NCBI RefSeq assembly: GCF_037975245.1
Contig: NC_092582.1
Coordinates: forward strand, 9,834,001 to 9,898,000
Direction: 5' to 3'
DNA: 64,000 nucleotides
From: Apostichopus japonicus
Lineage: Eukaryota > Echinodermata > Holothuroidea > Aspidochirotida > Stichopodidae
Position numbers and translations under genes: made by a program. Below are positions 58,501 through 64,000 of the stretch, piece by piece. Under the pieces are notes generated by a model that was given only the letters and a program-made list of their open reading frames with translations, was not told where the DNA came from and searched no databases. How positions within the stretch are numbered: the first letter of the stretch is position 1; each line of letters begins with the position of its first letter.

Positions 58501-61500
58501 GTAAAAATAGTACACGTTTAAAATAATGACCCAGGTAACCCACACAAACTTGAGGATATTCCGGCTGCTATTGTGTGTACCTAAGCCTTACCCGTAGTCC
58601 TGAACTGCAAACATTCTTGCTGCACAATCTTAGTACCTTGTACCTGTTGCTTGTACTGTGTGGTGTACAAACCATATGCAGATCATCATCATAGATGAAT
58701 CAGCATATAGCCAATGAGCTAACCGGACAAAAGTTCAAAGAAGGGACATACAGGTAAAATCCCAGTCACATTGTACCATAATACCCTCACTTTGCTACGG
58801 CTAATTGCTTAAAAACTTCAGCATAGTTGTACCATACCTTAAGCACAGTTTCCCGCGAAATGGTTCTCTCCAGTTTCTTTTCACATACGTAGTTTGTCAA
58901 ATGCTCTAACAAGTTATTTTTGGGCAGAAACCGATTCTGGGAAATATGAGTGAACAACACTGATTTTCATATTTTCAATTTGGTCAAATCTTTAAATAAA
59001 TTGATGCAAAGGAAACAAAAGAGGGGAAAATCGTTGTCATAAACCTGCAAATACATTTGTAGGCTAGGCTTGTGTCCATATTGTTCATGCTAATGTGAGT
59101 ACAGTTAATGTTAGAAGTAGTGGTTCCACAAAAATTTGTGGTTCACCAGGTATTCGTGACCCAGTATATATGTATCGGTTTGCGTATACCGACGCACCTA
59201 TTCCCACATCACTAGCATGGTAGGCTGAGTAAAAACTGGTGCTTATTTTTCAGTCTGGAATGGCAGAAAGAATTTAATGTGCCGGGTGCCCCACTGTTCC
59301 TTATCTCTGTATTTGGGCTACATAACTTGATGGCCAAAAAGCCAGTTAGGCTATCAACTTTCAATTTGCTAGCTTCCTTCATCGAGCGTTGTATTTGACG
59401 AGTGCACAAAGCACAATTAAAATTGAACCTGCTTACAACTGTCTTACACTTCTTGGTAAGAATCCAAGAAACTTTATACACAGGAAAGGAAAGTTGTTAC
59501 ATTCAATCACACTCAATCAGTCGTCTTCATAAGCTGAAGTCTTCATTGTAGCAATTGTAAAGAGTTATCATTTTCCATATCCAGACACAAATTGTTAATT
59601 TCTTACTATTATTGAAAGGGGAAAAGCGTTTCCTATTTAATACTGGAACGATACGCATCTGCTACCTGCAGTTCGTTCTTCATTTTTGCTACTTTTCAAC
59701 AGGAATGCTTCATTTCATATGACGTTATCAGTCTTCTCTTCACATCAGCAGACTATATCTACATTACCATTTCTAGTTGACAAGGTTTCTTGAGATAATT
59801 GGTTTGATTTTTTTTGTCTTTTTTCTTTAAGGTCATTGACCTCTTCAGAGCCAGCCCCTGTTGCTGGCAACAAGGGGGTGAATGGTCCAGGGGGAAAGCA
59901 CACCAGCAACAAAACCCAGCTGCAGGCAGACGGGAAGTGCAACGGCGAAATGAAGACGGAAACAGTGAGTCTTTCGAAACACTTTCATGACAGGAGTACT
60001 TAAAAGTACCACCAGTTAAATTTGACAATTAAATGACTGACAAAACACAGGATGTATACCTAAAAATGGCTAGCCAGGCTGCAGACCTAGAAATACTGAA
60101 TTAAGACTTATCTGAACCTATTTACTGTATTTTTGTTGTCAAGACAGTGATGGTCATCAGCCTTTGAACAATTAATAGTCATTGATGGTAATGTCTATAG
60201 TAAAGATGTGCAAGTTCAGCTATCATATCAGCTTTGAGAAGTAAACAGAGGGTTTAGAAGGGAGATACTTGTACACCACTCACAAGCAAATCATCACTAC
60301 AATCACTGACAGCCAAGTCCATGTCTATTCAAGCATTCATTCACTTTAATAAGATTTAGCTTGTTAGTTTTAGTGTATCACTCAGTCCATGCCTGTCCCT
60401 ATATCTGTCTTGACATTTCGTCCCTTCTTTCGCGTACTGACAAATTTGCATATTATGATATTTGTTGTACGTAGTGACAAATGTTTTAGAAACATCTATA
60501 TGCCCTTAAAATTGTCCTACATCCTTTAATTTTTATTGGCAATAAAATATAATTTGTTGTCTGTAACTTAAATCTAAGGGACTGCTTAAATGATATTCAT
60601 TGTGATTAAAATTCAGTTGCAAATTAGTGAAATGATTTGGACTGTGATATATCTTTTTTGAACATTCGTCAGTACGCAGAACAGGGAATGAATGTTCATA
60701 CCTATAGTGGTTAGGGAGAGTCTGAGGATTTCTTGGGTCCTTTCCCATAACATCAACGTCATGGAAAATAACACTGAAAGAATGAACACACATAAGCCGG
60801 GAAACTTGGGCTAGATCTGATATTGAGGATGCAGTATCAAGTGTTGAGTACACAATTACTCAGAAGTGGTTAAAATTAGAAAGCACTGTACTAAGGATAT
60901 TTCTTGAAGATTCAGAACACTCAAACAGTTCTGGCACAAAAAATCTCAAAGATGCTTTGCATTTTGGATATTTGCTGTGTATTGATCATTTTACTCTTGA
61001 ACATCTGTATAGGTATATTTATAGCTGACTCTCAACCACTGATGATGTCATCTTTTTCAGACTCCACAGATAAAAAATGAGGCTGCAGAACAGCCTGTAA
61101 CATCACCTCAATCACAGACCAAAAGACTTCAAGGAAGACAAACAAACCAGTTGCAATATTTACAGAAAGTTGTCATGAAGGCCCTTTGGAAGCACCAGTT
61201 TGCTTGGCCTTTTCACCAACCTGTTGACCATATCAAGTTAGCTTTACCTGTGAGTAATTCTCATTTGGATGAAAGTATTTATTGAAGACTGCTATACGAG
61301 AAGTTGTTATGTCTTCTGTTTCCCCTCTTGCCCTACAGCTGTTAAAAGATTTTCACTTTCCATTAGACTAACAACATTTCAGACAATCCTACCCTACAAA
61401 GGTTCAAATAACCAGGAAGCATGCGTCTCTTCTGGAGTAAGAAACAATAAGCAAAAGTACAGACTACAAGTTGTACTCTTAAATACCTAGCTGAAGTACA

Positions 61501-64000
61501 TTACCAATAATTTTGATTTGATCAGCAAATGGGAATGCAAGGCCTGCTAAAATATTCCCTGTTTCCAAAGCGAATATGTCTGCTTTCTGATCTTCATCAC
61601 CAGGATTACTATCAAATCATCCGCCACCCAATGGACTTAGGCACAATCAGGAAACGCTTACAAAACAACTTCTACCACAGTGCAAAAGAATGCATAGCAG
61701 ACTTCAAGCTCTTGTATACTAACTGTTATGTTTATAATAGTCCTGGTGAGGTAAGCATGTCAACATCGTCCTCTATCTTCAATTACTCCAATTTTGTCTT
61801 TTTTAGGATTATCTTGATGTCATCAAACACCCCATGGACTTGGGCAGCATTAAAAAGAGATTGGAAAGCATCTACTACTACTCTGCAAAAGAATGCATTG
61901 CAGACTTCAAGCTCATGTTTACAAACTGTTACACTTACAATAACCCAGGAGAGGTGAGGTTTCAATGTCTGCATGCAAGTTTGTTGTCGTTCCAGTACAA
62001 GATGTCTGCTCTATGTGCTTTGTTTCTTTTTTTTTGTTCATATTATATAATTCCTTTGCTGCTTGTAGATTTAGTTGTTATTGGATACTTTCAACTAATT
62101 TGCTACTAAATCAATCACAATCGTTGTTCTAGGAAATTTAGATCCCATGGAGTTTTTTATGGATCCGATTTATAATTATGGCAATAACACAAGATTTTTA
62201 GCAATTATGCTACATTTGTTTCCAGATTTTTTTTAAATGTTGGTGTTTTGATTTTCATCCTATTTGGCAGTCTTCTTTTGTAACCTGATTTATTTCTCCA
62301 GTTTCTCTATTACGGAGACGTTGGAGAAATCCGTATTTAAACCACCTTCTCATCATAATTAATAGTCTTTACATCGTATGTCTCTGTTTGTTTAGGATGT
62401 CGTCCTGATGGCTCAAGCACTGGAGAAGTTGTTTCTCACTAAGGTTGCTCAGATGCCTCAGGAAGAAGTTGAACTCCCTCCACCATCCAAACCAGGAGAT
62501 GCAGGAGCTAAAAGAGGAAAGAAGGGCAAACGTGTAGCACCACCTAGTGAGTTAACTTCTCATCTATTTGGGAAGGTCCATGTCTATACTCTTTATCTTT
62601 GGTGTGGCTATAGGCATTGATACTAGGTCCCTAATAGAACACACTACCCTTCTAACACGGATGTTTAATAATGTTGAACCTAAACCACATTCGTTTGGGG
62701 CATGTAGATAACCAAGCACATTCATACACAGTAATATGAAGGCAAGAATATGGGACATCAGTGGTTTCGGAGGAAAAAATAAAAGGTTGGCGTGTTTTAG
62801 CGACATTTATTCATGGAACAGATGATGCTTAGGATGTTGCTAGATGTAGAAAGTGCACAATTGTAAGATGTGTAATGTATGATGGTGAAGATAGTTGTTG
62901 GTATGCTTAATAATGCAAAGAAAACTTGAGAAATATTTACTCCAGCCAAGGAGATTTTAAGAAAGCGTTAGAACTTGTATTCCAAATCAGCATTAATTTG
63001 ACATTGAGTCTATACCATAATTCAGTAGAGCTGGTGTCCTTGGTATCTTTCTGCTTGACTTATCCATGATCAGTGATTTTTTGAAGTGACTAATTGTGAC
63101 TATGTTTTGTCCATTTCAGGAACAGTTAGGGCTAATTCTGTTAACCAGACAGAACCTATGATAGAAGATGTGGAGGAGGAAGAGGAGGAGGAAGAGGAGG
63201 AAGAAGAAGAAGAACCTCTCCCTCCTCCTGTGAAGGCTGTTCCTATGGTAGTTGAACCACCCCCACTTGTTACACAAGCTCCACCAACACCTCCAGCAGC
63301 AGTAGCAACACCTTCATTTAATACGCCTCAGCCTGTGTACACATCTCCCCCTGCACCAACTCCAACAAAGGTAAAACTCTTATACTTTGTCAGGCATGTT
63401 AGAGGCACAGAGAGAGATCTATGCTGCCCATCTTTTAGCTTTTTTATTTAATTCTTTGCCCTTTGTTTCAGTGACACTATTAGTTAATCCTAATGTAAAC
63501 CGCAATTCTTGTTATTCATTATACAGTTTTAAAGAGTCCATAGAGACTTCTTTTCATTTAACCTTTTTGGCATGGATACTGTAATTCATGTAGCTTTATC
63601 CTAATCAAAAAAGGTGAGATCAAAAACCATGTTTTAATCCCAGGATCTTTATTCCAATAAGATTGCTGATTCATGCAATGGTAACATAATGGACTTGAAA
63701 TGCCTAAGTGTCTGTGCGCAATTGCGACAGATTCTAACATCTTATGAAAAGAAGAATACTTTCCGTGTTTCGGACAATGAAAGAGGAGACAACTTCGTTG
63801 AGTTGAGCCTTTCATATGAGGCAATGCACAAGACCTTTTATCACTGATCAAATATTGCTATGTTGATAGTTTTAAAAAGGCTGAAATTTGAGTTTTGTCT
63901 TTATTGTATTGTCTTTATTCTTAGCTTTGACTAATTTCTATATTTCATTTTATAGTCCAAAAGAGGGGTCAAGAGGCAGGCAGACACTACAACACCATCA
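55544..64000 (+). CDS. BET-family bromodomain protein (BRD2/3/4, fs(1)h-like), 5' part; runs off right edge
   Basis: Coding exons: 55544-55608, 59832-59964, 61061-61249, then 61604-61750 or 61807-61953, 62396-62546, 63120-63370, 63956 to the edge. Phases agree throughout; with one of the paired exons this is 327 residues. BET proteins bind acetylated histones and recruit transcription elongation factors. Bromodomain 1 starts near [19 protein letters not shown]; the WPF shelf is residues 115-117 and the acetyl-lysine-binding Asn is residue 174, the same spacing (59) as Trp81-Asn140 in human BRD4. [12 protein letters not shown] after the domain matches vertebrate BRD3 closely. The final partial exon [13 protein letters not shown] matches the motif that precedes bromodomain 2. 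The gatekeeper position is Val180 where vertebrate BD1 has Ile. Exon 63120-63370 encodes a run of about 15 Glu followed by Pro-rich sequence. I give no symbol because the family is one-to-four with vertebrates. Confidence 0.95.
56370..56944. mobile_element. TIR element (575 bp), long copy of the family at 6962
   Basis: It starts aggcttcataattgacgcac and ends gtgcgtcaattatgagccc, the same inverted ends as the 111-bp copy. The block acagttgagtgatttgga lies close to the right end in both. The left end contains a small internal duplication (taattgatgcacctt). The extra 460 bp has no coding capacity. It lies in the first intron of the BET gene. Confidence 0.72.
61604..61750 (+). other. BET bromodomain 1 alternative exon, copy 'a'
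   Basis: 147 nt, 49 codons, phase 0 at both ends, between ccag and gtaagc. It begins [15 protein letters not shown] and ends [11 protein letters not shown]. It contains the acetyl-lysine Asn and both ZA-loop tyrosines (positions equal to BRD4 Tyr97 and Tyr98). It joins in frame to the exon at 61061 upstream and, if copy 'b' is skipped, to that at 62396. Confidence 0.9.
61807..61953 (+). other. BET bromodomain 1 alternative exon, copy 'b'
   Basis: 147 nt, 49 codons, phase 0 at both ends, between a strong tttttag acceptor and gtgagg. It begins [15 protein letters not shown] and ends [11 protein letters not shown]. It is identical to copy 'a' at 34 of 49 residues, with no gaps. The second ZA-loop Tyr is Leu here. 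The open frame is intact and substitutions are conservative, so it is not a decayed copy. Confidence 0.9.

Follow-up and report, generated by a model that had tools for sequence, protein, structure and literature searches.

A tandemly duplicated bromodomain exon in the apparently sole BET gene of Apostichopus japonicus, with two copies that are probably used alternatively

Introduction

BET bromodomains are central regulators of transcription and are drug targets. Vertebrates vary the first bromodomain (BD1) through gene duplication, and their paralogues BRD2, BRD3, BRD4 and BRDT are readers of one kind with differing BD1 modules, in proteins that carry BD1, a second bromodomain (BD2) and an ET domain. 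Variation of folded segments by splicing is known from other genes. In alpha-tropomyosin, actinin and OGDH, neighbouring homologous exons occur with a branch point less than 50 nt from the upstream donor. In tropomyosin and OGDH the intron is longer, and a large distance separates this branch point from the acceptor.

A donor-to-branch distance below 50 nt has been used as a criterion for potential steric interference (PMC5740500). In E1A pre-mRNA, a distance of 35 nt abolished assembly and 50 nt allowed it (PMC6692369), and branch points located 25-41 nt away from the donor enforce exclusion of the OGDH exons, where, as in many such pairs, runs of U lie between the branch point and the acceptor downstream (PMC7969005). 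Human intron 7 of HNRNPH1, which is also 56 nt long and has a donor-branch distance of 27 nt, is spliced with SPF45 (PMC8363638); thus, a short distance alone does not forbid joining. Substitution of tandem duplicated exons is reported for 236 events in the human gene set, as swaps of homologous segments within folded domains that keep the main functional residues (PMC9741552). Neither PMC9741552 nor PMC5740500 contains a word beginning with "BRD" or "bromodomain" in its main text, and a literature search returned no alternative exons inside a BET BD1 among the matches listed. The alternative exon described for zebrafish brd2b follows the region of the first bromodomain and is a different event (PMC2373290).

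Here, we describe an exon pair in the BD1 of a BET gene of the sea cucumber Apostichopus japonicus. The pair resembles those of alpha-tropomyosin, actinin and OGDH in having neighbouring homologous exons and a predicted branch point within 50 nt of the upstream donor, and it shares U runs before the downstream acceptor with OGDH. As in the human substitution events, the swap would concern homologous segments of a folded domain in which the main functional residues are kept. It differs from tropomyosin and OGDH in that the intron measures only 56 nt in total and the gene encodes a chromatin reader. The gene has the BD1, BD2 and ET order of the vertebrate paralogues but, unlike them, would vary BD1 by splicing, in the sole gene with an ET match. 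The splicing device is known; its location in the one BET gene detected in this genome is the new part.

Results

The exon pair and its host gene

The window, by which we mean the whole 64,000-nt stretch of DNA analysed, ends within a BET gene that lies on the + strand, as do the exons listed next. The upstream exon (61061..61249, phase 0) encodes the N-terminal portion of BD1, with helix Z, WPF and most of the ZA loop. It is followed by an intron of 354 nt (61250..61603, GTGAGT...CACCAG), exon copy 1 (61604..61750), an intron of 56 nt (61751..61806) and exon copy 2 (61807..61953), which has a U-rich acceptor. Each copy has 49 codons in phase 0-0 and corresponds to BRD4 residues 96-144. A 442-nt intron (61954..62395) separates copy 2 from the downstream exon (62396..62546), which encodes helix C of BD1 and a linker and whose donor, GTGAGT, starts at 62547.

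The copies, of 147 nt each, are identical in 108/147 bases and 34/49 residues; they are neighbouring homologues that agree in length and phase. The initial annotation had described adjacent, open 147-nt exons in phase 0-0 with this residue identity and a 56-nt intron, and we recovered the same coordinates and values. Its claim of good splice sites also holds, as both donors are near the top of the 3,632 GT sites of the window when scored with a consensus matrix (GAG/GTAAGC of copy 1 at rank 0.9989 and GAG/GTGAGG of copy 2 at 0.9997). In a genome search with copy 2 as the query, the best matches were the two copies, and the next best was 49% identical over query residues 2-46.

The BD1 of the window is followed, on the same strand, by a BD2 match at C22:9900882 and an ET match at C22:9903913. 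This is the arrangement of a BET gene, with two bromodomains and then an ET domain, and we infer that the exons for BD1, BD2 and ET form one transcript. The conserved site residues Y97, N135, Y139 and N140, whose roles are described in PMC3326523, are present in BD1 and identical in both copies. The proposed tandem exon duplication inside a BET BD1 was recovered as homologous, in-frame copies of the same phase.

Across 671,581,487 bases on 35 contigs, the ET profile PF17035 had one match genome-wide, in the BET gene studied (three candidates were scored). Because there is a single ET match and no third close copy of the exon, the Apostichopus japonicus genome appears to have no other BET gene, as far as a search by individual exons can show. 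We identified no Pfam match for neighbouring genes in the 10 stop-to-stop frames scanned, out of the window's 44 frames of >=90 aa. Relatives were also sought in viral contigs (90 pattern matches, 0 confirmed). One weak bacterial match (residues 2-27, 42%), among 40 pattern matches in genome contigs, was taken as chance.

A second repeat is present in the same gene. A tandem duplication of ~1.1 kb surrounds the first BD2 exon (C22:9898001-9904000, local 390-2905), with local positions 390-775 and 1481-1865 matching at 94% and 771-1481 and 2193-2905 at 92%. The second unit has ~330 extra bases, including the first BD2 exon (~2010-2110), that the first unit does not have, and the first unit terminates on a relic of the start of the following BD2 exon. 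It may be a failed exon duplication within the BET gene.

Branch point and splice-site signals

AG dinucleotides occur only twice in the 56-nt intron, at positions 4-5 and 55-56. The AG-exclusion rule locates a branch adenosine relative to the AGs of its intron, and the adenosines between these two AGs are at positions 7-41; thus, the branch point is predicted to be separated from copy 1's donor by <=41 nt, below the limit of ~50 nt for steric interference. Positions 31 and 35 match the branch motif best, though without a full yTnAy at either, and copy 2 probably has its branch point in this range of the intron.

The acceptor region of copy 1 (61571-61603) has its nearest plausible branch-site match, the yTnAy sequence CTGAT, only 13 nt before the end of the intron, and the preceding AG is 33 nt away. 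This layout is unusually tight and may mark copy 1 as a weaker, regulated exon.

Two other ways of enforcing exclusive use found no support. Competing RNA structures of the Dscam type are not indicated, since pairing of the 56-nt intron with the flanking introns is no stronger than in shuffled sequence: it was equalled by 24% of 100 shuffles for the upstream intron and by 46% of 100 shuffles for the downstream intron. Local folding in the region of the 56-nt intron likewise gives a structure no more stable than that of shuffles. Incompatibility of U2 and U12 sites is not indicated, as by inspection the sites at the pair are GT-AG with U2-like donors (GTGAGT, GTAAGC and GTGAGG).

Constraint and history of the two copies

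Between the copies, dS is 0.89 and dN is 0.23 (Nei-Gojobori), and nonsynonymous differences per site are fewer than synonymous ones (Fisher p = 0.001, with rounded site counts). These values point to constraint on both copies. We simulated the divergence of the pair with 1,000 runs per setting, counting as successes the runs that ended with >=34 identical residues and no stop. When both copies were constrained at omega 0.25, 213/1,000 simulations succeeded; when one copy was neutral from birth, 0/1,000 runs succeeded in each of two simulated settings; and when one copy was neutral over the last half of its branch, 8/1,000 succeeded.

The copies are equally distant from human BRD4 BD1 (31/49 and 32/49 identical residues). 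At their 15 differing positions, the BRD4 residue occurs in copy 1 at 5, in copy 2 at 6 and in neither at 4. At 7 further positions the copies agree with each other yet differ from human BRD4, BRD2 and BRDT. The shared residues are 103H, 121S, 123K, 127A, 130K, 131L and 144E, and 103H and 127A are also present in BD2 of the same gene. The seven shared non-human residues suggest a fit with duplication of the exon after the split from vertebrates, or with later homogenisation of the copies. We considered gene conversion, or constraint at the level of RNA, as an explanation for a near-identical block, and rejected both because no stretch of identical codons stands out for its length under permutation (p 0.63). 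Judged from its sequence, the tandem exon duplication in the core of this BET BD1 is real and constrained.

The 56-nt intron and predicted splice forms

Introns of this genome were sampled through exon-by-exon matches of four gene families, using 54/57 rows of the match table for CCT, 65/70 for myosin, 125/126 for kinesin and 36/38 for adaptin. The remaining rows, which were not used, comprised pieces with a single exon, weak in-frame pieces, one isolated piece, one merged match and a locus already represented by another copy. Among the resulting 101 abutting exon pairs, the smallest estimated intron is 126 nt, the 5th percentile is 232 nt and the median is 838 nt. Four short introns read in the sequence, as the best-looking GT-AG, are 129, 136, 157 and 183 nt, of which the 136-nt intron comes from a merged match and is outside the 101 pairs. 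The intron between the copies is thus less than half of the shortest sampled intron (126 nt estimated, 129 nt as read). None of the pairs (0/101) was estimated below 126 nt, in a sample of only four gene families that leaves room for rare short introns. Of 21 matches picked by eye for excess length, 5 were read in sequence; one of them held this same 136-nt intron, and no intron near 56 nt was seen.

Transcripts spliced in silico with a single copy each encode one complete Pfam bromodomain (82.0 and 80.6 bits, profile positions 4-83 of 84), and the form that skips both copies has no Pfam bromodomain. Retention of the 56-nt intron shifts the frame, so that a stop is reached in the following exon. 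The exon length of 147 nt is divisible by three, and thus no frameshift would remove double inclusion or double skipping. The form that joins both copies scores 138.3 bits as a whole, split over two stretches. The better stretch stops at profile position 77 of 84 and the second follows it. The earlier suggestion that double inclusion would break the fold is plausible on a profile match, in which the joined form gives two stretches in place of one complete domain.

What the two BD1 versions differ in

The exon had been proposed to span the ZA loop to the acetyl-lysine Asn. Mapping on 36iu_K refines this to BRD4 residues 96-144, from the end of the ZA region through helix A, the AB loop and helix B to the BC loop. 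For BRD4 BD1, the ZA loop is placed at 85-95, the BC loop at 140-144 and residues 118-122 of the AB loop away from the pocket, at the other end of the bundle (PMC9631989). The ZA-loop helix is described as starting at Y97, and helix A as following a P-hydrophobic-D motif (PMC3326523); this motif is found at residues 104-106 of the exon segment.

With these boundaries, the copies differ in the ZA-loop helix at 98, 99, 100 and 102, in helix A at 109, 111 and 115-117, in the AB loop at 118 and 120, in helix B at 132, 133 and 138, and in the BC loop at 141. Most differences (11/15) fall at 98-102 and 109-120. The apparent clustering at 115-120, where 5/6 residues differ, is not significant (permutation p 0.19). 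Copy 1 has a net charge of +1 and copy 2 of -1.

According to the initial annotation, the two versions differ in the pocket rim, at YY versus YL in the ZA loop and at QNN versus ESI, and may read different acetyl marks. Only part of this proposal is supported. The first pair of residues (97-98) is in the ZA-loop helix as defined in PMC3326523 and might tune the edge of the pocket. The second is not at the rim: it occupies 115-117, beside AB-loop positions 118-122 and remote from the pocket (PMC9631989). Y97, N135, Y139 and N140 are the same in both copies. The differences at 98-102, like that at 141, lie towards the pocket and could tune peptide preference, which leaves some room for the proposal of the initial annotation.

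Given shared site residues alongside differences in the ZA helix, the AB side, position 141 of the BC loop and net charge, we infer that a difference in contacts with partners, in dimer contacts or in nucleosome contacts is likelier than recognition of a wholly different mark. BD1 surfaces remote from the pocket can be relevant: in BRD4, the flexibility of the AB loop is reported to track dimerisation (PMC9631989). BRDT BD1 is reported to bind DNA via helix Z, and the BD1 of BRD3 and BRD4 did not bind DNA (PMC5187433). Here, helix Z is encoded by the upstream exon and is common to both versions.

Discussion

We propose, with a probability of about 0.73, that the two copies are used alternatively, one per mRNA, and that steric interference prevents the joining of copy 1 to copy 2. 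The two copies arose by tandem duplication of one BET exon. In this reading, copy 1's donor would lie too close to copy 2's branch point (<=41 nt and probably 31-35) for the spliceosome to engage both simultaneously, so that copy 1 would not be joined to copy 2 and each copy would be joined to the outer exons instead. Copy 2 is likely to be the default form because of its U-rich acceptor and higher-scoring donor, and copy 1 is likely to be the regulated form because its branch-site match is only 13 nt from its acceptor. Mutual exclusivity, as claimed in the initial annotation, thus agrees with the short intron, the nearby predicted branch point and the constraint on both copies. Steric exclusion is not absolute, as the HNRNPH1 counter-example makes clear, and exclusion at the BET pair is therefore likely rather than certain.

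It is unlikely that only one copy is used while the other, though intact in appearance, has fallen silent or is decaying. Such a duplicate would have to have lost its use late, as in the few successful simulations with neutrality for the last half of a branch; neutrality from birth does not fit in either setting. The absence of stop codons, the high-scoring donors on both copies, the low dN/dS and the equal distance of the copies from human BD1 also argue against it.

Mutual exclusion might be brought about by trans-acting repressors on the U-rich tract, and not by steric interference. The U-rich acceptor of copy 2 is consistent with this, as is the OGDH pair, in which close branch points occur together with TIA-1/TIAR and PUF60 (PMC7969005). 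Proximity below the threshold is already enough for exclusion in published cases, and we consider control by repressors alone to be quite improbable here.

Normal inclusion of both exons, which would give a BD1 with a 49-residue in-frame repeat, is the least probable of these alternatives and very unlikely: it would be allowed by exon lengths divisible by three, matching phases, the spliced human intron of the same size (PMC8363638) and the overall score of the joined form, but the intron is exceptionally short beside those sampled and the joined form has two successive stretches in place of one complete domain.

If the copies are used alternatively, one gene would provide two natural BD1s with 15 differences and the same residues at the four checked sites. 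The role of BD1 surfaces outside the acetyl-lysine pocket is hard to test, and this pair would be a ready-made experiment. We tentatively suggest, as a possibility about which we are less than evenly confident, that an animal with one BET gene gains paralogue-like diversity of BD1 through a mutually exclusive exon in the folded core. The two versions would keep the same acetyl-lysine anchor and present different surfaces at the ZA helix and the AB side, and would therefore differ in their partners, in dimerisation, in contacts with nucleosomes or in fine preference for peptides; tissue or stage might determine which version is made. Splicing in one gene would then be doing what gene duplication did in vertebrates.
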